Below are positions 1,030 to 25,299 of a stretch of 27,512 nucleotides of DNA, piece by piece. Within the stretch, counting starts at the first letter, position 1. Each line of letters opens with the position of its first letter. A program made the position numbers and the translations under genes. Source of the DNA: Hysterium pulicare CBS 123377 (lineage: Eukaryota > Ascomycota > Dothideomycetes > Hysteriales > Hysteriaceae); contig AJFK01000022.1 of NCBI GenBank assembly GCA_000467715.1, positions 1-27,512 on the forward strand, in the 5' to 3' direction. The notes beneath the pieces are model-generated. The model did not search any database and was not told the DNA's origin. It saw only the letters and a list, made by a program, of their open reading frames with translations.

Positions 1030-1715
1030 TGAGTTGATACTGTAAGAGGCTTTATGAGTTGTATCATATTAGGTGCATGTATCTTTCTGCCTAGGTAGGC
1101 TGTCGGATACGCGCAAGATATAGAGGAGGAACCGCAAGGTTTTGTTGGCATTACGGCATTGGGTCGGCGTTGGCTATAGATGTATGATTGATGAAAGCTT
1201 CGGGTCTTACACCCTGATGGGCACGTGACTGATTTTTCGATTTCGAAGTTATATAAACGCTGTCAGCCTTGGAATCGCTCTTATTCTTTACAACACACCC
1301 ATCGTCGAACGAATCACAGCTAGCCTGACATGCCCGCGTATGCGGGAGAGCGGCCTGGTGTTTGGAGATTCTAAACTGACATTATGTCACAGCGGTGTTG
1401 CTGTATGGGGTGTTGGGGAAGCTGACTTGTCCTCTGCCCAGATGGTCAAGAGGCCGGGTGATAAGCTCATCATTTCATCGTCGGGCTAATCTTCGTCACT
1501 ATCTCCGATTCTCCGTTTCATCACCTGTTGACCCCCCTTTCTCCAGCACCCATCATAGAGACACCTCCCACAAGACACTTCTATACCCAGACCCAGCCGA
1601 AGACACCAACTTGAATTCTTTGTCCGGCCAACTTTTAGGTACCACCATGATTCCGCTATTGGGTTTTGATTGAGAATTCCACACCCATGGCTCGCTTGTT
1701 GCTGAGGATTTGGTC
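1030..1715. other. Downstream region with one promoter-like cassette and no supported gene
   Basis: This is the 3' flank of the LCAT-like gene followed by a plus-strand promoter-like module (listed separately at 1221-1320). A 92-codon plus ORF at 1395-1673 has no recognisable domain, and I do not support it as a gene. Confidence 0.5.
1221..1320 (+). promoter_or_regulatory. Promoter-like module: CACGTGAC box plus TATAAACGC
   Basis: CACGTGAC lies at 1222-1229 and TATAAACGC at 1252-1260, 22 bases apart. A pyrimidine- and AC-rich leader-like stretch follows (TCTTATTCTTTACAACACAC). The same order and sequence recur at 4699-4747 and 7079-7134. CACGTGAC is the general binding site type of bHLH factors such as Cbf1 (known). 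No coding gene that I trust follows, so this may drive an unrecognised short gene or RNA, or be a duplicated promoter fragment. Confidence 0.5.
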
Positions 1716-3160
1716 TCCAGGTCTCTCCACTCTCCATGTTAGCAAAGCTGGACATGGATTTTGAAGGATAGCGGGTTGTAGTGGTTGATATCGAGAAGAA
1801 ATCGCCGCACAACATGCGAGTTTTGGCTGTCGTTCTTTTTCTTTCAACTCCCGCAGATCAGAGGCACGTTTGGCGGAAGAGAATAGAGATTAGATCTCGC
1901 GATCCACCCACTACCCATTCAGAAGTTTATTCCAGAACCCACTCCACTTTCCGTCAGTGGAGTGATGGAGTGTTTTGGAGCATAAGGGCGCTTGCTGATA
2001 GAAGTTGGAGAGAAAACAGCAGGGTCCGGCCAGTTCGAGGCTTTTGAATGGCGCAGACCATAGACAGAATTCGTCGATGACTTTGGGTTAGTCTCTCCTT
2101 CCACCAAAGATGGTTACCTGAGGATGTTGGAGCAGAAGGGCTGGCTCCATCAATGTTGGGGTTGAGTGGCTGTTTTGGAACATATGTCGCAGTGGCCGTG
2201 GATGTTGGGGAGGAAACGCCGCACAGCATGGAAAACGCTTTTGTCATTCTTTTGGCTTCCGCAGAGCATGCAACTATTGATTGTGGAAGTCTGCTCTGGC
2301 AGTCTGGTCCAGATCGAAAATGATCGGAGGGATGTTTTGGATCCGAAGGCCAGTCTCCATTCAGTTGCTTTAGCGCTAGATTTTGAAACGGACGTGGGAG
2401 ATGGCTAGGGGAGAAGACGCCGAAGGAAGCATATGTCGATTGTTCTGGAATGTCGGTTCCCACAGACTATAGGGAGGTCCGCCGAAAGAGGCTTGGGCCG
2501 AGAGTCTAGTCTCCATGGTGGCCCTATGTCGAACTTCTGGTCCAGAGGCCCTCTCTCCATGGATGGTCTACATCGGGAATTTAGAGTGGATGGGGAGTTT
2601 TGAGAAGAAGACGCCACACACACAGCATGGCGAGCTATTAATCTGCTCTTCTTGAATCCCGCGGATCATATAAGGCTAGTTCTGATATCTTTGGCCCTTA
2701 CGCCCAGTCTCCATCAGTCGTCCTTCGTGGACTTTTTGGAATAAGGGCCAAGAATGTTGAGAAGGCACCAAATCCAACATAAACCACGTTGCTATACTCT
2801 TTATCAATCCCACAGACCATTGCCCCGTTGAATATCAGAGTTTTATTCCGGGGGTCTAATCTCCATGCCGATCTTTGAGGTCCGACCTTTAGAGAAGAAT
2901 CTAGAGCTTGAAGACACCAAAACGCAGCATAAGTTCCTCTTGTCAATGAGGTTTGGACTCGGCAGAACATCACACCTGCTGTGGCCGCATGTATGGCTCA
3001 AGGCATCGAATCAATATGATTTGCCTTTGCGGCGTTTTAGCTCCCGCGGACCATGTAGCTTTAAGTGGTAGAGTTTTGGTGCAAGATTCCAGTCTCCGTG
3101 ACCTGAATTGCACCACAACTTCGGGCCGGAGCGTAGGAGGTGGATCTGTGTGAAGAGAAT
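1716..3160 (-). repeat. Degenerate tandem array of about seven ~200-bp units
   Basis: Three anchor motifs recur in the same order. On the plus strand they are (1) CAGTCTCCAT-like at 2351, 2507, 2705, 2857 and 3090; (2) CGCCGCACAGCATG-like at 1803, 2217, 2418, 2612, 2762 and 2911; (3) CCCRCAGACCAT-like at about 1851, 2051, 2260, 2460, 2659, 2809 and 3043. Spacing of the third anchor is 200, 209, 200, 199, 150 and 234 bases; an eighth copy lies near 3491. Read on the minus strand the units look like decayed coding sequence: reading frames of different units give related words such as GDWNLAPK, NGDWPSDPK and DGDWA-stop-GPK, and MVCG recurs. No unit has a long frame and stops interrupt several. 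The TATA-like element at 3181-3190 points into the array on the minus strand. It may be a decayed tandem gene family or satellite-like DNA; I do not recognise the family. Confidence 0.6.
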
Positions 3161-3180
3161 GGTTGATGTGAGGGCTGGGA

Positions 3181-4230
3181 GGTATTTATATGGGTCGAGG
3201 GGGAGAGATAGGGAGATGAGATGCTTACTCAGCTATTCGAAAGGGGAGATGTGGTGGAGACTAAAATAAGTTCTAGCATTCAGACACTTAACAAAGGAAT
3301 AGAGGTTCATATCAACGCTCTTCATCATTACATTATCAATCCTAGGCTTCATTATCAATCCCTCAACGCGGATTAACCTCAGACGTAGAAACATTACTGT
3401 TTCCATTACATTATCCCCCTTTAAGTCTCAATCACTTTGACATTCGCGCACTGAGAAACCATCATGTGACTTTTTCTAACCGGTTTAGATCCCACAGACC
3501 ATGTGCTCCTTGTAGAACGAAGTTTGGTCCGGGAGCCCACTCCATCAACTAACTCCTTCCTCAATTTTGGGAGAGAGAAGGACGTGGGTTGCTTATGAAG
3601 AGGAAGTTGACGGGGAATCTAGGAGGTATTTATAGGTGAGGAGGTGGCTGGCTTATTCAACAATCAAGAAAAGAGCTGGTGCGGTGAAGACCTCCAAAGA
3701 GCTACGGCTTTAAAAGAAATGATAACACACTAGAGGTTCCTTCTGGTGAACTTCGTCATCAATATCAACAATCAATGTCTCTATTATCATCTTACAACAC
3801 CGTTTAGCCTCTCTATGGTAGCTTATTCCCGCCTCCGTTGAATGTTCCAAAGCTCTGCCGCAACTCCCATCAGCCCCAGTTTCCTCACAATCACTGACTG
3901 GGAACAAACATAGGATCCAGCAAAGCTTGAGCTGTTGATTCGAAGCGATACGAGCATGATCGTGTATGATGGTTCGTTTTGCTCCAAGTCGCGCACTCCA
4001 TGGACCGCTTCGTGCATCGTTTTGGACCGAAGAAGGTGCGATGTAGTTGTTGTTGTAAAGAAGACTCTTGGTCAACGATCTGGGAAGTATTTATAAATGA
4101 ACCGGGCAGGATCTGATGGTTAAATGCTTATTCAGCCACTGGAAATGTTGGGGGGAATAAAGTAGGTGGAACAGAGATCAAGGGAGTTGAGAACGAAGTG
4201 TTAGTTCCCTCTGACGTTCTTCATCGTCAC
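3181..4230. repeat. Three tandem copies of a divergent promoter-like cassette (~450-bp period)
   Basis: Minus-strand TATA boxes (TATAAATACYTCC as read on that strand) lie at 3181-3190, 3625-3634 and 4085-4095, so the period is 444 and about 460 bases. Each is followed on the plus strand, 17-33 bases on, by GCTTAYTCARC (3223-3233, 3651-3660, 4126-4136). About 70-80 bases later comes a GAGGTTC- or AGTTCC-like word and a CTTCATCATC-like stretch (3301-3330, 3732-3760, 4201-4230). That stretch resembles the sequence just after TATAAACGC in the fuller copies elsewhere. These three copies lack the CACGTGAC box and an intact plus-strand TATA, so they look like partial or decayed copies. The DNA between them has short ORFs only; the 121-codon minus frame at 3710-4075 begins with TTG and has no recognisable domain. 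Confidence 0.55.
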
Positions 4231-7994: not shown

Positions 7995-10476
7995 CTACCT
8001 ACCAGCTCCATACTCTGGTTTATAAGTTTTGACGCCTCCAGCCTTCATAAGCTCTCTCAGCGCCATTGTGGCGTACTGACTTGTTCCCAGCTTCATCTTC
8101 AGTACCACGGCCAACTTAGGCAGCAGATCACTAGAACCCTCACCATCCGCCATCTCTTGATCCTTATTCACCCCTTTCGAGTCCTTTGTCCCCATGACTT
8201 TTTCAGACTTCTTTTGCTCTTTGAATTCTGCTTCCCGCTTCCTTAACCTTTCCAGGTCCGTTTCGACTAGCTGCTCATCATCCTTGGTATATCTCCTGAC
8301 CTCAAATTCTAGCTCTCCGAGCGGTCTAGCGATGACTTTCCTATATCCACCACTCAGACTGATATCCCTCCACTTCCTACGCATATCATGAGGATCTAGA
8401 CCACCACCTCTCTCACTCTTCATGAATTCCTTATAAAAACCTCCGATCGCATTTTTCGGGTATTCGACATCGAAGCCCGGCAGCGGGAGAACAATATCAA
8501 AGATACTGTAATCACCCGACGACGCTTCTCGTGCCGAGAGTGGACGAGCACGTTCGAAGAGATCAGATGCAGAAGCCGCGCTGTTCTCACCGGTAGGACG
8601 GATGATGATTTCTCCAGATTGGTCAATATCTTCCTCGACCGGTTGGTCGCTGTTTTTGTTTTTGTGTTCGTCGATCAGAACGAGATCGCCTTCGACGACG
8701 TCAGAGCCAAACGTTGTCCATCTCTTCCCTGCCACAATATTCCAAATGAAACTCTGATAGGCATGCACGTACATGAGACGTAAGTTTCGAGGTATTTGGC
8801 TCATGGCGCCCTGGAAATCGTTCTGACGCAATAATTGACCCGTTTTGTGATCTTTCCATCCTAGGTGTTTGATAATGCAATTTTCAGCGGTGAACTTTCG
8901 AGGGAGTCGTTTCAAAGCTGCATTGGCGTCATTAGTCGTTTTCCAGATATTCAAGGCTTCAGCTCGAGCTTTATCGTCGGAAGATACAAGGATGGCGGAG
9001 TCGGGATTCTGGGCAGCTGAAAGGGCTTCTAAGTTGAACGAGAGAAGATTCTCGACGGCACCCTTGAGGTCGTCTTGAAGCATCTTGACGCCAACTGTGT
9101 CCGTGCTTGCGGCGAAAGAACCGAAACGCTGAAGGCCGTAGTAGTTGATGAATCCTTTCTCTGAAAAATCCCGGACAGCTTTCTCAAGAACTTCGCTCGC
9201 AAGACTTAGTCTCTGGGTGAAGTCTTTGCCTTCTTCACCTTCGAAATGGCAGTCTCGGAGGGTGATGACGAACTCATTCCCCGAGAGATCCCCTAGCTCT
9301 AAGCCTCCGGGATGGTATTCATAATCGCCAATTTGTGCGTTATACAGTTTCCTTCCCAAACCAACCATTGTGCTTGCATTAACACGCTTCGCGCTGACCC
9401 TCTGAACAGTCACGGCTCTGCGATCCTTGGTCCCAGCAAACTGGAAAGTCTTCGGAGCCATCTTCAACTGGCTTCCAATGTAACCGATGACCTCCATGGT
9501 ATCCTTGTTCTCCTTGTACAGCGTGAAATGTAGGTATTCTCCACCTAGCTCTTCCCAGGGTACCTTGCCTCGACCACCTCCTCGCCCGCCCGCGTTCTGA
9601 TTCCCTCGCTTACCACGGTCCCGGGGCGGAAGCGGTTTTATTGTCATTGTCTCATCCTTCTCTGTGGTACTTTCGAACCGTGACGGAAATATTCGGCGAA
9701 GTGCTTGGTGGGCATTGGTTCGCTCTTCTTTGTCGGGTAGGACGCCTGTCGTGACAGGCTTGAAGTCTCGGGCTTTCTTTTCGGGGAATTTATATGCAGC
9801 ACCGTGAAGTGATAGTATCGCAGAAGTGGTTTCCTCTCCGAAGATGGATTGTAGCTCCTTGACGTTTTCTTCTGAAATCTAGGAAGCAACTAAGTAAGGA
9901 AAGATTTGTAAGATGCAGCTTAGTATTTACCTCCGGCACCTTTCCCCTCTCCTCTCCATCCGCTAGCTTCGGCTCTTGATCCTGTTGTTTCACTACTTGG
10001 GCGGGTTTCGCATCCGTCGTAGCAGTGGACGCAGCATCGGGTTTTACACCACTTGCCGAAGACGATTCAGCCTTGGTCTCTGCATCCTCGCCACGCTTGT
10101 GTTGCGGAACAGTGAGGTTCTCAAGGTGTAATACCTTTCCTGAAGGCAGTATCTCGTTGACGAGAAAGTCTGTGTACCTAATTTCGCATGCAAAATGAGC
10201 TTCATTCTTGTGCTAGAGCGGATCGACAGAAAGTTCCCACCTCTGCTTCAAAACGCCCGTAAATCCCAAGTTACCCGGACATATATATTCTGTGATCCCA
10301 GCCCTAACTTCCTTATTGAGATCGTCGTCGTCCTTTGTCCCATTATTGCTAACGGCGCCATTGGCGTTTTTTAATTCTTGGACGCTGGGGGTGGTTTCGT
10401 CCACTAAGGTAGCTTCTGGACTGCTCAATCGCACACGCTTTCGGGGTTGTTCATCTTGAACATCTGGTTCCATCAT
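7995..10476 (-). CDS. PUS7: Pus7 pseudouridine synthase (TruD family)
   Basis: Three exons (10476-10241, 10177-9931, 9878-7995) with introns of 63 and 52 bp give 788 codons in phase. The protein starts MMEPDVQDEQPRKRVRLSS; RKRVR is a likely nuclear signal. Family marks: YICPGNLGFTGVLKQRYTDF spans intron 1, FAGTKDRRAVTVQRVS carries the catalytic Asp (about residue 313), then NYYGLQRFGS, and the C-terminal RKVIARPLGELEFEVRRY and LGTSQYATMALRELMKAGG. Pus7 enzymes convert uridine to pseudouridine in tRNA, U2 snRNA and mRNA at UNUAR-like sites (known for yeast). It is longer than the yeast protein (676 aa); extra length lies in the acidic N-terminus, a poorly conserved stretch around residues 100-160, and an Arg/Gly-rich loop at about 247-266. 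The first ATG after the promoter gap is taken as start; a second Met follows directly. Confidence 0.95.
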
Positions 10477-11156: not shown

Positions 11157-14100
11157 CTACAGTTCATCATGCTTCTTCTCGTTTGCCTTCTTCCCCCGAT
11201 CCAACGCCGCCTCCATCGCCGCCTTAATATCCTCCTCACTCGCGTTCTCATCCAAGTCCAACTTGACGAGCGGAGGTTTAACCTCCTGCTTGATCTCCTC
11301 ATCACCCGTGACCTTTCCTTCTTCAACGTTCTCTTCAACTCTTTTTTTCTCCGCCATCTCTTCGTCCTTCTTCTTCGAAGACTTCTTGGGTTTCTTAGGC
11401 TTCTTGGAAGCCTTGGGTTTTGGACGCTGGGTCTTTTGTTGCTGATACATCTTGCGTTGTATAATATCCATGAGCGCGTCGTTTAGCTTCTTGGTCTTTT
11501 CATTGATGTCTTTGACAAGAACAGCTGGATCTTCGGACTTGGATAGCTTGGCTTGCGAAGCCAACTTCTCGTCCATCCATTTCTGTACACTGCCGGAAGT
11601 ATCTTCAAGGGATTTGAGGTCTTCCTCGTTATACATCGCCGCAAATGACGGGGGCTGCGAAGGTTCAGGCGCTTCTGACGATGACGACTTCAGCATATCT
11701 TGATCCTCCAGGTCATCGAGAGGATCGGCGCTCGTCATTGCCGATTTCGCAGCCGACGAGCTAGCAGACGCAGCAGATTTACTTGCTTCTTCTGCCTCAG
11801 CAGATGCCTTAGCTGCGCTGTCCAGCTGCTCTTTGACGATTGAAGTAAGTGACTTGAGCTGAGACATAGCGTCTTCTAAGGAACTGATTGCAGCTGGTCT
11901 TTTAGCTGTTTCATCTTTGCGCTTCTGAACAGGGTCGACAAGGTCCTTCAGCTCTTTGAGTCGTGATTTCAGAACCTCCTCAGTCGCGCTGTGGCCCTCT
12001 CCATAAATCCAATCACTAGCGGCGCTGAGCTTTTCTTGGAGCTTGGAGCGCTCCTCGGCGGTAGATGCTGCGATAAAGCTTTCGTCTTCGAGGAGATCGC
12101 GGGCGCGGTATGTGAAGGCTTCGAGCGAGTTGAGGACTTCTTCGCGGACACGTCGCGCTTTGTCGGAGGCATCATATGCAGCAAGTCTACGAATCATTAA
12201 TGATCTGCATTGCAAGGGTGAGTTCATGATTATACCTGTCTTGCATGCGCCTGAATTCCTTCTTTGGGTGCTTCTCGTATCCTTTTTGCGTGATGTGATA
12301 CGTGATAGCCGAAGTGACAGTCTTCTTCTTTCCAGCTAAAGCCGTGGCTGAGTCGGATGTCTCAGGCTCTCCAGAGGACGAAGCGGAAGACGAGGAAGAA
12401 GAGACAGATGCGGTGGCAGAAGATGACTCGGAAGCTGGAGAAATCGCTTCTTCAACTGTTTCGGAAGAGTCTTCGCCTTCTTTGAGTGGCTCTTGGTCTC
12501 CTTTCTTGCCGCCCATGCCAAAAAAGTTCTTGACATTATCCATTACACCACCTTTACCTCCGACCATATCTGTTTCGCATGTAACCCAAGCCCCCAACAC
12601 TTCAGGAAGACCAGTGACTGGGCTCAAGCGTACAGAAACTTTCGTATCGAAAGTCTCTCGATCACATCCATCCTGATCAATCAAGGTCGTAACCACTCGA
12701 GTCAAATTTCCGCTCTTGAAGTGGACGACGGGGCTTCGGATAAGCTCTTCGCCACCGCTAGGAACGGACTGATAGAGTGTAAATTCAAACTCTCCCATCA
12801 TCTTGAAAGGAAGGTCCTTGGTCGTGCCAACTTGAGATGTCGGCGTGAACACCTTCTGGAGACGATCCTTAAGATTCCACATGTACTGAACACCAACAGC
12901 GTAACCCTGAGTATCTGAATCTCGAATTTCCTTGACGCGGAAGCTTGGGCTCAGTCCAGCGGCCTTGAAAGCGGCACCAAATACTGCCGCTTCATCGGCA
13001 TTAACGTTGCTCCTAAGTTTACCGGAGCCTCCAGCCAAAGATTCGAGCCGCTTTTGAACAAATGGGGTCCGCACTGCACCACCATGTAGAATGACCGAGT
13101 CCAGATCGGCAAAAGTGAGTCCAGAGGTTACAAGAGCCTGCTGAACCGGACCATCAACGCGAGATGCAAAGTCTTCCGCCATCTCCTCGAATCTAGATCG
13201 TGAGAGCTTGTAGCGGAAGTCGACGTCGTCATGCAAGCTTTCGAAGAACGCTGAAGTCTCGGTGTTTGCACTGAGAACCTGTCGAACTTTCTCGGCTTCT
13301 TTCCACAGCTTTGCGGTAGTCCTTCCAGAGGTTTTGACACTGAAAATGTCAACTCCGGCTTTCGTTGCAGATGGTGTAGCGATGAACGCTTTTATCATGT
13401 CCGTCATGATGAGAGCATTTAACGAGTCTCCGCCCAGTGTCCTATCCCAGCCCGTTCCCATAACTTGGACCTCTTGAACTGTCTTGTTGAATCTTCCTAC
13501 ATCTTTGACCGTCCTGCCCTGAAACTTCAGAATCGTGGCAGTAGCCGATCCGGCACCCATGTCAAAGACCATATGGTATTCAGCCTTGCCCCCTTCGTTG
13601 GCCACCGGGAAGGTCCTAGTCGTAGCATAATTAATGCCCACTGCGAGACCATCGCTTACCAGGCCTAGCACCTTAAGTCCAGCCAACTTGGCTGCAACTT
13701 CGAGCGCCCTCTTCTCGTCTGCGGTATAAAACGGTGGTACCGTAAACACCACATCCACGACATCAGTCCCCTTTCCCGCCAAAGCTTTTGCATTCTCCTT
13801 TATATTCTTCAGTTCCATCGCCAGTAGCTCCTCAATAGTGAATGGCTTCTCCTCCTGCGGGAAGCTCGGACTCTTGATCGCAACCGTAGGACGATCATCC
13901 ATTCCCACAAGATCCAACGCTGGATATCGTCGTTTGTATTCCCTTGCAATCTCTGGTCCCATCAACGGTATGCCCAACAGAGACTTCAAATTCAGGTATA
14001 CATCGCTCGGAAATCTTGCGGCGAGGGCAAGCGCGTCACCTCCATAGAATCGCTCGGGAAAGCTCCCAGAAGGCTCTGTCCCAGATTTTGAGGGTTTAAA

Positions 14101-14316
14101 TGCGACGGCAGAGAGTTCTTTGCGTTTCGAGTCTTTCGTTAAGACGATCTCGAGGGGAATTCCGGGTTTCACAAGCGCTGCTTTAATGTATTCCGTTCCA
14201 AGGTCGATACCCAGGACAGCCGAAGCTGCGGATGCGGTGGAGGAGAAAAGCAAGAGGAGTCCAAGAATGATAGAGAGAGTAGGGGAGTTAAAGCGCCGTC
14301 GACCTGGTGGTGCCAT
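11157..14316 (-). CDS. LHS1: Lhs1/HYOU1-type ER Hsp70-like chaperone
   Basis: Two exons (14316-12236 and 12186-11157) joined across a 49-bp intron encode 1036 aa. The start chosen is the ATG at 14316 (MAPPGRRRF); the frame upstream has no other ATG. A signal peptide covers about residues 1-30 (hydrophobic core LSIILGLLLLFSSTASA). The Hsp70 ATPase domain shows VLGIDLGTEYIK (34-45), FDMGAGSATATIL (251-263) and the adenosine motif HGGAVRTP (411-418). A Ser/Glu-rich stretch (about 620-665) is the usual Hsp110/Grp170 acidic loop. The C-terminal part is helical and Lys-rich and ends in HDEL, the ER retention signal. Lhs1 exchanges nucleotide on the ER Hsp70 Kar2/BiP and aids protein import and folding (known in yeast). 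Length and end signals are complete; nothing looks broken. Confidence 0.96.
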
Positions 14317-15198
14317 TGTGAATATCGAGGCGGAGGGGGATTGAAGCAAAAGCGGGTAGGCAGTCTAATATAACAAAAGTTGCAGTTAGGTGTTCAACGC
14401 CCAGATCTAAAAGCTCAAGCTGCAAAAGTGAAAGAAAGGAATGGGAGTGTATCCCGGTTAGGTTGAATTTGGGCGTGGTTGCGCATTGAAGAGGTGAAGT
14501 CAGTAATAAATGTCAGAAGCTATCGGAGCTACAAATGAACACCTGGCGTTAGCAACAAAGGCCACCTTTTCATGGCGAAGCTCCATTGACCAGCCGCAAC
14601 TGATATTTTATGCGCAAGACTTTCAATTAACCGTTCATGCAACGTAGTAGAAATTTTATCTCTTTTTCTTGACAAGAATTATAATTGTTGCAGTGGTTCC
14701 GTAAAGTTCTTTGAATTCCAGCATTTTCTAGCCAATCAGAATCAACGCTTCTCCGCAACCTCCTTCAACGTCTTGTTTCGCGGCTGCGCACGTCAAGACC
14801 GTTGCCGGGAGCGTACATATAGCATGAGGCCTGGCGTAAGGACTCAGCGATCGCATCCTCAGAATAAATTCCAGGTATTTCTAGTTCTCCAAGATCATAA
14901 ACCTTTAGCCCAAGCACATTTCATACTATCTTGTCTTTTTCTCGTCGAGCAAGAACCAGGTCTTAGTATTGTAACTTCTCGGCACTTTCAAAGGTAGACA
15001 AATGGGTTTGAGGCTTTTCACAAAGAGTACTCTCTCCAGAGTACCATTAACCCCCGAACTATCTGGTAAACATACTTTTAACGCTATCATGAATAATGCC
15101 ATTATGTACCATGCAGCTATTGGGCTTAGATAATTGCCCTGTCCCCAAGGCAAGTCGCAAAGATGTATGTAGTACACTAGTTTGGGCCCTTCGTGTCC
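14317..15198. promoter_or_regulatory. Lhs1 upstream region (and sideroflexin 3' flank)
   Basis: Reading toward Lhs1 (minus strand), there is a CCAAT box (plus strand CCAAT at 14732-14736) and a TGACGTG word (plus strand CACGTCA, 14789-14795), both 400-480 bp upstream of the ATG. TGACGTG is the core of the unfolded-protein-response element bound by Hac1/XBP1-type factors (known), which would fit an ER chaperone; one 7-mer is weak evidence. No gene is seen in the gap; the small ORF at 14926-15177 has no recognisable feature. Confidence 0.35.
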
Positions 15199-16516
15199 TC
15201 ATATCCCACGATTAAATTCCACCATACTATCCTTGCCACCTTTATCCCAAAAGCTCTCCTCGAGTGTCTTCGCACTCACTGCTTGACGTTGAGGGAAGGC
15301 TGCAAGCGCTAATGGGAGAGCAAAGACGGAGGTTGAGAGAATCAAGCCTACAATTCAGTCAGTCTAGTGTATGAGGGAAGTTCTTCCATTGGTATACATA
15401 CCAAGATTTACTGGGAGTACCATCCTGGGTCGCTGCTTCAACCATTCCGTTCTCTGTAATCGTACCAAGATCAGAGGCGGAAGGACCATGATCGGAGTAG
15501 CATTCAACACCCGACTCAGAGCTGTCTCCCCTACCGCGAGCTTTGCGGCGACTTTACTCTTTCCCAATGACTTGACTACTCCATCACCTGCTTCGACCTT
15601 TTGTTTTTCTTCTTCGCTAAGAACGGGATATATGTCAATTCCTCTCCTAATCTCTTCACCCCGCATAAGGAATACATTCAATGCACCCGCACTTGCCACA
15701 GCTGCAAACGGCACCAATCGACCAAGAGTCATGCGTGCTGCAGGCGACAGGCGCTTTAGTCGTGGAACAAGCGAATTGAGGCCCAATGCTACGCCGCAAG
15801 ATGCGCTGACGGCTAGGAAGTACGATTGTACAAGGGTGGACATGGACAACGGCGTAGACTTGTTTGCATTCGCATTATTGATTGCGACGTTAAGCGACTG
15901 GTTGGTAATTTGCCATGCTAATGTTCCTGCTGTCTGGTTATAGTATTAGCAAGATCCCCTTTGGATTCAATGAAGAAAAGAGCATACCCCAAGACCAGGA
16001 GTGAGCATTCCAGCTGTGACGACCAAGTTGGACAGGACAAAGCATGACATTCGGAATGGCAGGAAGACGGGCTGGCCAGTATCTAATTCTCCTTCAGTCC
16101 AGCACCTCGCACCACTCCTTTAAGGGTCCATATTGCCCGCACCTGGATGTAGTGTAGAATCGATGACCTTTTTCGCAGTCCATAACTCGGGCGTCATTTC
16201 CTGTATCTTCCCCTGCTTGTAGGATGTGACAAGTTGTTTCGCATGTTCGAGGCCGGCAGAGGAGGTCAGGAGTGTTCTGTATTCCAATTGCGTTGTTAGC
16301 AAGAGCATTCAATTGGGCAGTAGAGCACGCGAGCTTTCGAGAGCTTAGAGGTAGTGGTACTCACCACACCCCCGCAGCAGGAATACGGTGATTTTTGCGT
16401 CGCTGTTCTCACCTAGGATCTGATATGTCGGCAGAATGCCTTACTCGACCCCAATATGTGCTAAGGTCATATTGAGAGACGGGTAGGTCTCGGTTGCCAG
16501 GTAGAGAAGAGGACAT
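15199..16516 (-). CDS. FSF1: Sideroflexin (mitochondrial amino-acid carrier)
   Basis: Five exons (16516-16413, 16276-16143, 16082-15988, 15933-15402, 15347-15199) with introns of 136, 60, 54 and 54 bp keep phase and give 337 aa, the usual sideroflexin length. It starts MSSSLPGNRDLPVSQYDLST. Family motifs in order: YWGRVRHSADISDPRTLL, STLHPDTGQPVFLPFRMSCF (the HPDTG word spans intron 2), the Asn-rich NQSLNVAINNANANKSTPLS, GEEIRRGIDIYP, GETALSRVLNATPIMVLPP and a last short exon ending EFNRGI. Several hydrophobic segments fit a five-helix inner-membrane protein. Sideroflexins carry serine or related substrates into mitochondria for one-carbon metabolism (human SFXN1); the fungal substrate is inferred. 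The first intron is the least certain, but CCTAG|A gives the conserved DPRTLL junction. Confidence 0.94.
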
Positions 16517-19566: not shown

Positions 19567-20498
19567 AAAGTGGAAACCGTAAAAAGCAGCCATGTTTGCA
19601 AACAGTGAGCACTGGAAACGAATTTTTGGCTGATGTTATTGCGCTGTACCTTAATGGAACGGGACAGGATATAAAGAAGATAAGAACTGATAAACGATCA
19701 CGCATACCTATAACTCAGTGTTCAACGACAAGTTAACAAAACCGACTCGCATGTATCATTGTATTCGTGCTTACGACTATTGTGTTCCCCGACCTTCGTG
19801 CACCTACGGCCCCATCTATGTGTGACAAGCAACTTCATACCTTTACCTTAGCGGCCACTTTTCATTCCAGTCAAGTGCCGAAGCGCTCGACAACGGAAAC
19901 ATTTAATGATGTGAATGTGATATATCAGCCAGTACTTCAGTTAACAACCTTTCACCTCTAATGTAACGACTTTTCACGGACTTCGACTTCATACAAAAGC
20001 ACTTTTCGGTCTGATAGTCTGCGCAACGCGTACTCATGCACCTATCCTTTCAGAGCTACCAGCCTCCATCATTCTTTATCAAAGCCATTTGGTGCACGGC
20101 GTACTTAGTCAGAATAGTCATTGGTCTGCGGATCATGCCCGTTTCGCATTTCGTTTGGTACGTGAGCTATCAGGTTACACAGTGAGCCGTTCAAAGAGGG
20201 GGTTGCTCGTCAATCTTTCCTTCTGCTTGTTTCTTCACTACCCTCCTCTTCTCTACTACGTTGCGTTGAATCCCCAGCGTTTTTGGACTTTTACCTCACC
20301 GGAGGCTGAAAACTGTTGGAAGGAGCGCCCGGGTTCGTGCTTCTCACCGGACGTCACAGTCTTAGCGCGTCAGAGACAACTTCCTTCAGCCCCGCGCTGA
20401 CCACCTACCAAGCAAGCAACAGCTTCGCAACAACTTCGAAGCTGTTGAACCTCCCCAAGACTCCAGATCGCCTGAAGTATCGATCATATCGGTTTATC

Positions 20499-23400
20499 AT
20501 GGATCAGGTCGACCCGCAGAATCTTAAAGAAAGGCTGCAATGGGAGCAACAAGACTACTGGCTCCACATCGAGGCTAGTACTCCGCTGGAGAAGTATCCC
20601 GGTGAGTCTTCTATCGAGCTCAAAGCGAAAGCCTCAAGAACTAATTTTAGAGCTACCAGCCAAACAACATGCGGAACGAGTAGCTCAAAATCTGGGGGTA
20701 TCGGAAGGATTAATCTACCTGCCTGGTGCGCCTATGAAGCTCGAGCCGGACAGTGATATGCCCCAGCCTTTTCGTCAACTACGATACTTTTATTACTTGA
20801 GCGGGTTTGTCACTTTCCTGGCGAAAGGGTTGAATGCAAGCTAACCATGTGTTCAGCTGTAACGAGACTGACTGTCATCTGACTTACGACATTAATAACG
20901 GCGTTCTCACCCTCTTCATCCCAAATATTGACCCTGCAAAGATAATATGGAGCGGCCGTGGATCTACGCCTGCTGAGGCATACGACAAATATGACATCGA
21001 TCAGGTCCGCTATACAGACTCCCTCAGCTGGTTCTTAGAGCAGTGGCCTAGTGTTCACAACGGAAAGCTCTATATTCTCCATACTACACCGACATCATAT
21101 CACGTGCAGGATCATTACCCAGAGATCGATCGCCAATCCTTGCAGCCAGCCATTAGTGCTGCTCGAATGATCAAGGACGACCACGAGATCAAACTCATAA
21201 AAAAGGCCAATGACATTTCGTCAAAAGCCCATCGTGAGGTACTCGCGAACATCCTAAAATTCAAGAACGAAGCTCAAGTCGAAGGACTATTTCTTGACGT
21301 GTGTATATCACAAGGCGCCAAAAGTCAAGCATACGCACCTATCGCTGCATCTGGAGTCAATGCCAGTACGTTGCACTATGTTAAGAATGATGAGCCCCTT
21401 CAAGGACGACAGCTCATGTGCCTGGATGCCGGTTGCGAATGGGAGTGTTATGCTAGCGATGTCACTAGATCGTTTCCTCTTTCTGGCTCATGGCCGTCCA
21501 AGGAAGCCAAGCAGATATACGACCTAGTTCAACGCATGCAGGAATCCTGTATTAATCGGCTTGCCCCTGGTGTAAGGTTTCTTGACCTACACATACTTGC
21601 TCACTACATGGCTATCGATGGCCTGTTGACTCTGGGGATTCTGCACAACGGATCACGGGAAGAAATTTATAGAGCAGGAACATCTCGCGCCTTCTATCCT
21701 CATGGTCTTGGGCATCATGTTGGCCTCGAGGTCCATGATGTTGGACAAGGTGATCTAATGTCAGCCATCGCTAACATCGATCAAAAGCACCACGAAGTAG
21801 GTGTAAGCCTGTTATACCAATGAAGGCTTTCGCTCACTACTACAGTCAAAATCGATGTTCCCCGAATATCATCATGCTCCAGTGTATTCACCCGAAACAT
21901 GCTTTTCTCCAGTTGATCCCGTCAGTACAGGATTAAAAGAAGGAATGATAATTACGGTCGAGCCTGGAATGTAAGTGACTGAGATGATCCGCTGGGCTTT
22001 ATTTTACTGATTTGTTGTAGCTACTTCTCCTCCTTTGCTCTTAATATGTTCTTCCTACCTTCGCCAATCCATTCCAAGTATATCAATAAGGAAGTTCTAT
22101 TACGCTACCTGCCGGTCGGTGGCGTAAGAATCGAGGATTGCGTTCTCATAACATCTGCCGGTCATGAGAACCTGACTTCGGCACCGAAAGGGGAGCAGAT
22201 GTTGCAGATCATTCGTAGTGCAGGAACTGGCATCCCCGAGCTTGGAGACTTCCTGGACACCGGGTTCGGAAGACCGGACGATCATTCAGACTTGACAGCA
22301 TCGAAGACGCCTACTTTACCTATCCCATCGCAAGAATACCCTTCGACAAGCCAAGTTGAACGTTGGGTCGAAGATGCCCATAAGGTCAGGTTGTGTCCCG
22401 AACCCAAACCAGCTCCTCCGAAAAGCCAACGCAGCCTGGCATGCACATACTGCAGACCGCGAAAAGTAAGTCTATCCTTTCAAAGAGATGATCGTACATC
22501 AAATTCTGATAACAGTTAGATTCGCTGTAGTTTAACACAGAGTGCCCACGGTCTAACTGGTGAGGACCGATGTGCTAATTGTCGGCGGTTTGATCGGAAA
22601 ACTTGCGGTAACGTTAGAGAACCTAAGGAAACTCCAGCAGAGAATACTCGAGATCGTTCTGCTGCCCAGCCGCAAATCGCAACCACTGGTACTGACAACG
22701 ACCCGACCAAGGACCCATCACCTAAAGGCAAACAGAAGGCCACTGCAGAGGCAGCCGAAGGTGATATGGAGCCATCATCATCGACTGCACAAATCGGAAA
22801 CCCTGGACAGTTCCTGGCAATGGCACCGAACCGTCTTCAGCAAATCCAAGCACTACGAGTGCCGGTTCAGCACGAACGACAAATGCACAAAACCCAAGAT
22901 GGATCCCAGAATCAATCTGCGCAAGTGCACCAGCCGCAGCACCAGCCGCAGCAAATGAGGCAAGTTCTTGCAAGCGCCATGCGGAATGCGGCTTCTTCTA
23001 CCATTGGTTCGTCCCAAGTAGCAGCAATATGTCCTCAACCTCAAGCGGCCTCATCCCCTTTCCCTCGCGTGCCATTACAGGCGGTTCCAGCAGGTCGACC
23101 TGTTTGGGCAACGTCGTTCTCAACATTGTCTGCGGATCTATTAGATCATCTACATGCCGGGGGCTCGGGGAGAGAAACCACCCAACGACCAAATTCTACA
23201 ATGGCACCATTGCCAGAGCCCCAAAAGCCGGTATCGTATCGGCATAGTCTGCCAGATCTGAAGCCACACCGAAGTAGCCGCGTTCCAGATACTACAAACC
23301 TCCTCAAGCTACCACAAGTCCATGCGGATGAATCGAATGAAAAGAGTGTTCAGATTCCTCCGAGATCTCAGCACCATCGCCAGCCACTTTCTGACCTTGG

Positions 23401-23824
23401 AGACAGGCTGGATCATCCCTTGGGAAAAGCTTCGATTCTGCATGCTCTCACGAGACCCGCTACGCTGGAAACGTGGGGTCAGCTCAAAGACCACATGAAC
23501 GCCGATCCACCGGCCGTGCCGCAATGGTTCTCCGATGAACTCTCTCATCTCCAAGCAAAGTATCGCGACAGTAAGTTCGAGGCGGTTATGCTCTTTTCAG
23601 CAGTTGACACGTTGACTCGGCAGACTGTTGACATAGACGACAATCAAATTCCGGCGGGGCAGGAGAGCCTAGTCTACACTTATCTACCTCAAATCAGATG
23701 TAATGATTGCGGAGGAATGGTTTCCCCCCCATCTATCAAGAATTTGGAGGCTCATCTTGTTGGCCCTCATCACAAGCTTAGAAAGAGGTTGAATGAGCTT
23801 CGTAGGTTCAGTTCGGCTAGATGA
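20499..23824 (+). CDS. Xaa-Pro aminopeptidase fused to a Zn2Cys6 zinc cluster
   Basis: Six exons (20499-20601, 20651-20804, 20857-21802, 21846-21970, 22021-22465, 22520-23824; introns 49, 52, 43, 50 and 54 bp) keep phase and give 1025 aa. Residues about 1-505 are a whole M24B aminopeptidase P/prolidase with all five metal ligands: D276 (CLDAG), D287 ([10 protein letters not shown]), H372 (HGLGHHVG), E440 (TVEPGIYFS), E481 (VRIEDCVL). The usual prolidase end ([17 protein letters not shown]) is followed without a stop by a linker. Then comes a canonical fungal binuclear cluster: C584-X2-C587-X6-C594-X14-C609-X2-C612-X7-C620. Intron 5 sits inside it between CRPRK and IRC, a place where such introns are common. 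The rest (about 621-980) is Pro/Gln/Ser-rich and looks disordered, and a CX2C...HX4H word lies near the C-terminus (985-1008). Peptidase function is secure (removes an N-terminal residue before Pro). The fused DNA-binding role is inferred from the open frame and needs transcript proof; two overlapping genes would be the alternative. Confidence 0.85.
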
Positions 23825-24574: not shown

Positions 24575-25299
24575 TCATCTCATAACGGGCGGTCTCGCCT
24601 CTTTATTCCACTTAACCCTACTACACAACCACTCAACAGCCTCCTGAACTCCCGTTCCCGTCAACGCGCTGCAAGGCAAAACCCTACTATCTCTCACACT
24701 TGCTCCTTTGCCGCCTTCAATAACCTTCCTCACCAGCCCTTCCTTGATCCTCACCACCTCAACACAATCCTCTCTATCCTGCTTATTCGCCAATACAAGC
24801 AACGGCACTCCCTCGGCATCTTCATTCTGCAACACACTCTCCAGCACCAATCTACATTCGTCCAATCGTCCAAACTCGTCACTCTTTCCTGCATCCGTAC
24901 TCAAATGCGCTATATCCGCATCTCCGATATCCGTGCTATCGATCACAAAGACTATCGCATGGCAGCTCGAGTAGTAGGATTGCCAGAGGCCTCGGAGGGA
25001 ATGCTGGCCGCCGACGTCCCAGATTTTGAGATAGATGGGGGGATTGGGAGGTGGGAGGGAGACGGTCGCTACATTTTGGCCGACGGTGGGCACGGTTTTG
25101 AGGTTTGGGTGGGAGGCGCTGAAGGCTGATTTTATTTGTTCGAGGAGGGTGGTTTTGCCGGCATTGTCGAGGCCTAGGAGGAGGATGGAGTATTCTGGCA
25201 GACGATTAAGCTGAGAAGAGATGGAAGGCATAGAGAGAAAGAACACAAACCTTCCTTGCTTGTGGCATATAGATATAGGCCTTTAAGGAGGTGATACAT
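24575..25299 (-). CDS. ARL3: Arl3/ARFRP1-type small GTPase
   Basis: Two exons (25299-25251 and 25194-24575) around a 56-bp intron give 222 aa starting MYHLLKGLYLYATSKEEYS. GTPase motifs: P-loop GLDNAGKT (24-31), switch I VPTVGQN (51-57), WDVGGQ (75-80), NKQD (153-156) and CSALTGTG (191-198). There is no Gly at position 2 for myristoylation; instead the N-terminus is Met-Tyr, as in yeast Arl3 and human ARFRP1. Those are N-acetylated and recruited to the trans-Golgi by Sys1, where they act upstream of Arl1 and golgins (known). Acidic and Pro-rich insertions (about 62-69 and 105-126) make it a little longer than the yeast protein (198 aa). The first short exon was chosen because it restores the conserved amphipathic N-terminus; the in-frame Met upstream of exon 2 would lose it. 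Confidence 0.93.

Follow-up and report, generated by a model that had tools for sequence, protein, structure and literature searches.

The window analysed here is a stretch of 27,512 nucleotides that makes up the whole of contig C19 in a draft assembly of Hysterium pulicare (37.2 Mb in 596 contigs), and the gene described below is taken from this one genome. On the plus strand, positions 20499-23824 contain six exons that splice in frame and encode a protein of 1023 amino acids followed by a stop codon (Table 1). The earlier note on this DNA had counted 1025 residues, a figure that the spliced translation corrects. The stop-to-stop frame 20310-20756, which surrounds the ATG at 20499, contains no earlier in-frame methionine. 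For intron 3, a donor at 21801 was dropped in favour of the one at 21797, since the former shifts the frame and the latter restores it.

Domains of the encoded protein follow one another in an unusual order. An M24B peptidase (about residues 20-502) is followed by a 74-residue linker, a six-cysteine cluster (residues 582-618), a stretch rich in A, Q, P and S, and finally a C-terminal CCHH module. Neither Fungal_trans nor any other further Pfam domain is listed for the 1023-residue protein at E values up to 10.

Table 1. Positions in the window of the exons, of the intron inside the cysteine cluster, and of the protein features downstream of the peptidase.
Feature	Position	Strand	Remarks
Exon 1	20499-20601	+	ATG at 20499, with A at -3 and G at +4; spliced frame
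Exon 2	20651-20804	+	AMP_N domain begins here; spliced frame and Pfam
Exon 3	20857-21796	+	Bulk of the M24B catalytic domain; ligands D276, D287, H372
Exon 4	21846-21970	+	Carries ligand E438 (VEPGIYF)
Exon 5	22021-22465	+	End of the peptidase (E479 in VRIED), linker, cysteines C582 and C585
Linker A508-A581	22220-22441	+	Begins at the position of the stop codon in the PEPP paralogue (contig C286); open frame with coding-like sequence
Six-cysteine cluster	22442-22606	+	C582, C585, C592, C607, C610, C618, with C607 and C610 in the motif CANC; exons 5 and 6
Intron 5	22466-22519	+	Within the zinc cluster; 22517-22519 is the first in-frame stop after intron 4
Exon 6	22520-23824	+	Rest of the cluster, then the A/Q/P/S-rich stretch and the C-terminal module; stop codon 23822-23824
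Snf5-type C-terminal module	23504-23776	+	C983, C986, H1001, H1007; match to the genome's Snf5 and to PDB 23fj

Several other genes of the window are encoded on the minus strand. A Pus7-type pseudouridine synthase with TruD and PUS7L_N matches in Pfam lies at 7995-9878. Within the region 11157-14364, the frame 12187-14364 matches the Hsp70 family (PF00012), and this gene resembles the ER chaperone Lhs1. An overlapping frame at 11157-12335, which has no convincing Pfam match, may be the 3′ part of the same gene joined by an intron. A Sideroflexin exon (PF03820) is found at 15364-15945. Finally, an Arf-like GTPase (PF00025) at 24575-25282 is located downstream of the peptidase gene and is convergent with it.

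The peptidase half is well defined. Pfam places AMP_N (PF05195) at residues 42-149 (profile positions 5-113 of 121, E 1e-25) and Peptidase_M24 (PF00557) at residues 199-485 (profile positions 2-207 of 208, E 3.4e-49). Both matches exceed their cut-offs and are near full length compared to the Pfam profiles. Residues D276, D287, H372, E438 and E479 align with their equivalents in human prolidase and form a complete D, D, H, E, E set, which we take to be the five metal ligands of the M24B family. With two nearly complete domains and five aligned ligands, the M24B peptidase with all of its metal ligands that had been claimed earlier is confirmed.

The best match among solved structures is human Xaa-Pro dipeptidase with 222 bits, compared to 131 bits for E. 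coli PepP, and by sequence the peptidase is nearer to human prolidase than to aminopeptidase P. The alignment to prolidase structure 5m4g falls in two stretches, which cover residues 20-383 and 428-502 of the window protein. The name “aminopeptidase P” used in the earlier note is therefore loose: the assignment to M24B holds, while the name is imprecise, because human prolidase scores higher. None of the 13 NCBIfam models listed for the peptidase reaches its own cut-off, equivalogs included. Cleavage of Xaa-Pro bonds is a predicted capacity that the enzyme could have.

The six cysteines downstream are arranged as C-x2-C-x6-C-x14-C-x2-C-x7-C. The third loop of Zn2Cys6 clusters generally has an upper bound of 12 residues, and it is in this loop alone, with its 14 residues, that the window cluster departs from Zn2Cys6 spacing; all of its other spacings fit. 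A family search of the genome had 207 candidates, scored 150 of them and listed 134 Zn_clus matches, of which 50 were measured (the 30 best, plus 20 picked mostly for wide spans). The third loop contained 5-12 residues in 49 of the 50, in agreement with the bound of 12, and the remaining one gave no motif. The consensus quoted in the available text of PMC5082525 is CX2CX6CX5-9CX2CX6-8C, and terms describing the spacing do not occur in the available text of PMC2447501. Because its third loop of 14 exceeds both the x5-9 of this consensus and the 5-12 of the genome clusters, the window cluster is a variant and does not have the exact spacing with which it had been credited.

Profile searches agree with this assessment. 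The Pfam Zn_clus profile (PF00172) matches residues 581-625 with 16.2 bits in the full protein and 17.4 bits in the downstream half, short of the cut-off of 21 in both cases. The window cluster is absent among the 134 Zn_clus matches listed for the genome, and it could not have scored well in that search because an intron splits it. The only PDB chain that a phmmer search with the cluster stretch listed at E up to 10 was a ribosomal protein (E 3.9), so that zinc-cluster structures were absent from the result. Directly beyond the cluster, the sequence weakly resembles C425:26080-26250 (E 1.1e-5, 44% identity over 57 residues), which lies in an open frame of 1157 residues on another contig. This match was set aside as probably due to low complexity.

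The end of the protein contains a feature that the earlier note missed. The last 106 residues match the C-terminus of the Snf5 protein encoded on contig C506, with 34-37% identity over about 90 residues. The Snf5 gene of this genome has an SNF5 domain exon and a CCHH-module exon, at 1518-3737 and 3784-4119 of locus L019 on that contig, and its main exon encodes an SNF5 domain protein (PF04855, E 2.7e-74). The SNF5 repeat domain itself is absent from the window protein according to Pfam. A phmmer search with the window module also matched chain S (Snf5) of PDB 23fj at E 8.2e-10, while the other five of the six chains listed were at 0.016 or worse. This is the independent search, since a profile match to 23fj at E 4e-54 came from an alignment that contained a piece of 23fj and is thus circular.

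The window protein has the features that define this module of about 90 residues, a conserved CxxC and a conserved H-x5-H. The two cysteines and two histidines are invariant in the window, C506 and 23fj copies, whereas two proline columns at the N-terminal side vary. Since these four residues are kept in all three copies, the module likely holds a zinc site. The window and C506 copies are the only two found in the genome, and neither matches any Pfam family in the version searched. Folding of the module alone gave a prediction of low confidence (mean pLDDT 44.6), which was set aside. Of the independent signs that the downstream half has a part in gene regulation, the Snf5-like tail is the best, and its homology to Snf5 gives the chromatin theme of this half a second line of support.

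The junction between the two halves lies in exon 5, which runs unbroken from the VRIED motif of the peptidase to the first two cysteines of the cluster, with neither an intron nor a stop codon between them. A PEPP-type M24B gene on contig C286 of the same genome, with 46% identity to the window gene over the aligned catalytic region, ends right after the peptidase domain. Its C-terminus reads NENLTPTPKEVDEMRKIIKG-stop, and the terminal EMRKIIKG-stop aligns to MLQIIRS-A508 of the window protein; the window gene therefore reads past the end of its paralogue.

The linker that begins at this point resembles coding sequence. Its codon score in the true frame (22216-22440) is 0.174 bits per codon, compared to 0.023 to 0.071 in the other five frames, on a scale trained on a small set of six stretches of conserved genes. 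The peptidase scores 0.121, and the two parts beyond the cluster score 0.170 and 0.137. The cluster segment scores poorly (-0.277 bits per codon over 43 codons), possibly because of its cysteine content. Of simulated non-coding sequences as long as the linker, 2.0% were open when read in a single given frame, and 0.01% were open with a codon score at least as good. When the simulation was drawn from the linker's own composition, these values rose to 8.4% and 1.2%. Real DNA gave a similar picture, in that none of 10,678 overlapping stretches, taken on both strands from three hand-chosen and presumed non-coding parts of the window, equalled the linker.

The claim that the frame reads without interruption from peptidase into cluster is thus borne out by six exons in frame, an open exon 5 and a linker whose openness is beyond chance. 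The DNA thereby supports the view that a peptidase and a fungal zinc-cluster-type domain form one continuous frame, and such a frame is odd, as the earlier note held. A true fusion is favoured over two genes because of the position of the paralogue's stop codon and the coding-like linker.

One way to account for the continuous frame without an established fusion is that the peptidase stop was lost in this strain alone, or that an assembly error joined two genes that are normally separate. Adjacent genes often share an orientation, and the evidence comes from a single genome whose draft is divided into 596 contigs. However, read-through intergenic DNA would not be expected to resemble the coding-like, 74-residue linker, and the phase is kept across intron 5. 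In addition, searches of the genome found neither another close copy of peptidase exon 3 (as DNA) nor one of the downstream half (as protein) that could have been mis-joined. A strain-specific loss or a misassembly is considered unlikely.

Splicing offers two further ways in which the halves could be kept apart. Intron 5 interrupts the cluster, as had been proposed. Its signals are a GTAAGT donor, a TAG acceptor and, 10 nucleotides 5′ of the acceptor, a branch-like CTRAY; intron 4 likewise has a branch-like site. A scan for alternatives covered 183 GT-AG or GC-AG pairs whose donors lie between 22060 and 22469 and whose acceptors reach as far as 22700. Nine combined a good donor with a pyrimidine-AG acceptor, and the 174 weaker pairs were dropped. 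Five of the nine share the intron 5 donor. The other four start before the cluster, all from the donor at 22124, and all delete the VRIED metal ligand; two of them would give the peptidase a premature stop, after residue 498 in one case and 521 in the other. Among the 183 pairs, therefore, no good-donor alternative ends the peptidase ahead of the cluster with all metal ligands intact, and this loss of the VRIED ligand supports the one-gene model.

These results bear on the possibility of two overlapping transcription units. The peptidase transcript would then terminate in intron 5 or beyond it, and a separate transcript for the cluster would begin within the peptidase gene, at ATG 22046, at ATG 22199, or at ATG 22374 followed by a short intron. 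Chance neighbours of these types are plausible in a genome with 134 Zn_clus matches and 13 M24 exon matches (the window gene included). Stand-alone starts for the cluster comprise nine one-intron models as well as ATG 22046 and ATG 22199, both of which lie in frame within exon 5. A start at 22374 is the only one that sets a short N-terminus right before the cluster. Its hypothetical 50-nucleotide intron (22385-22434) would give a cluster protein beginning MPISLACTYC and would shift the peptidase out of frame with the cluster. However, this intron relies on a poor donor, GTCAGG, which fits at 2 of the 4 positions scored, and it has no branch-like site. The ATG at 22199 has a weak context, with C at -3. 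If no such intron is spliced, translation of the peptidase runs through the linker and half of the cluster before it meets a stop, and the coding-like character of the linker also argues against separate units. Two overlapping units are thus regarded as rather improbable.

The second possibility is that one gene makes two products by way of intron 5. Retention of this intron would give a product of 606 amino acids, a peptidase that ends 17 residues after the first half-cluster, while splicing would give the full fusion and so turn the regulator on. Beyond intron 4, the frame stays open up to the final three bases of intron 5, which form its first stop, so that the product of retention contains the peptidase in full but lacks cysteines three to six and everything beyond them. 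The position of this stop is suggestive, but many unspliced introns meet a stop anyway. Moreover, constitutive splicing of intron 5 is expected because its donor, branch and acceptor are all good. A switch of this kind is very unlikely.

The locus is probably one gene that gives rise to one fused message and one fused protein. Relatives of this gene were sought in other collections. A scan of a genome contig collection gave 11 loci, all titled bacterial, with 22-27% identity and no fungal relative among them. Viral contigs, scanned with the exon 6 half, with the peptidase core and with an alignment of two peptidase sequences, yielded no relative that could be confirmed.

In the fused protein, an M24B metallopeptidase of the prolidase-like type would be followed by a linker, a variant Zn2Cys6 cluster, sequence of low complexity and a Snf5-type CCHH module. 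M24B peptidases usually form dimers. If the peptidase half does so as well, it would replace the coiled coil and middle region of zinc-cluster factors, and a dimer of the prolidase type could hold two clusters on DNA. The cluster would contact DNA, and the Snf5-like module would contact chromatin-remodelling partners. The peptidase might be catalytic, or its site might sense Xaa-Pro peptides or metal.

A DNA-bound regulator is conceivable, though we lean against it. We regard as tentative, and rather doubtful, the fuller proposal of a catalytically competent prolidase with its own DNA-binding cluster and Snf5-derived module, which would cleave or sense Xaa-Pro peptides, bring an SWI/SNF-type contact to target genes, and use the peptidase dimer as its dimerisation device. 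A regulator that senses proline peptides is possible. Fungal zinc-cluster factors usually sense metabolites via middle regions that are poorly understood. If the proposal is true, an intact peptidase would occupy the sensor position, and the chemistry of the sensor could be assayed. Independently of the proposal, it is useful to know that an SWI/SNF subunit and a zinc-cluster-type protein have in common a conserved CCHH module without a Pfam match.

No fusion of peptidase M24 or aminopeptidase P with Zn2Cys6 was found in one open-access library, in part judging from titles and the opening lines of abstracts, which is not proof that the architecture is undescribed. A module shared by Snf5 and zinc-cluster proteins was likewise not found there by title, and the word “peptidase” was not found in the available part of a review of fungal factors (PMC5415576).

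Each part of the window protein can be compared to a known system. Human prolidase PEPD (MEROPS M24B; PDB 5m4g and 2iw2) matches residues 20-502 and the five ligands are kept, but its solved chains, at 478-494 residues, leave no space for an extension like that of the window protein. Zn2Cys6 factors (PF00172) have in common with it six cysteines in order and a basic first loop. These factors usually have a short N-terminus directly before the cluster and a Fungal_trans middle region, although the latter is not obligatory. The window protein differs from them in its x14 third loop, its score below the cut-off, the position of its cluster C-terminal to an enzyme, and the lack of a listed Fungal_trans domain.

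A zinc cluster is reported to be joined to parts of an enzyme elsewhere. In QutA/QA-1F, the cluster is reportedly linked to parts derived from the metabolic enzyme AROM. That enzyme differs from the one in the window, and the cluster is at the N-terminus of QutA/QA-1F compared to C-terminal to the enzyme in the window protein. QutA/QA-1F is an activator of the quinate pathway (PMC12610400, in its available text). The CCHH module, with its four CCHH residues kept, is shared with the Snf5 proteins of contig C506 and PDB 23fj, but the main exon of the C506 gene contains no peptidase or cluster domain.

A precedent for a link between proline and zinc-cluster factors is Put3, which reportedly binds proline directly. 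It is a zinc-cluster factor that governs proline use, as stated in the accessible part of PMC5729217. Lastly, a precedent for an M24-type fold within a chromatin protein is the N-terminal domain of Spt16, a component of FACT. The Spt16 domain is described in the text available from PMC7708052 as being without the consensus active-site residues, and peptidase activity was not detected. Unlike Spt16, the window protein keeps all five ligands.
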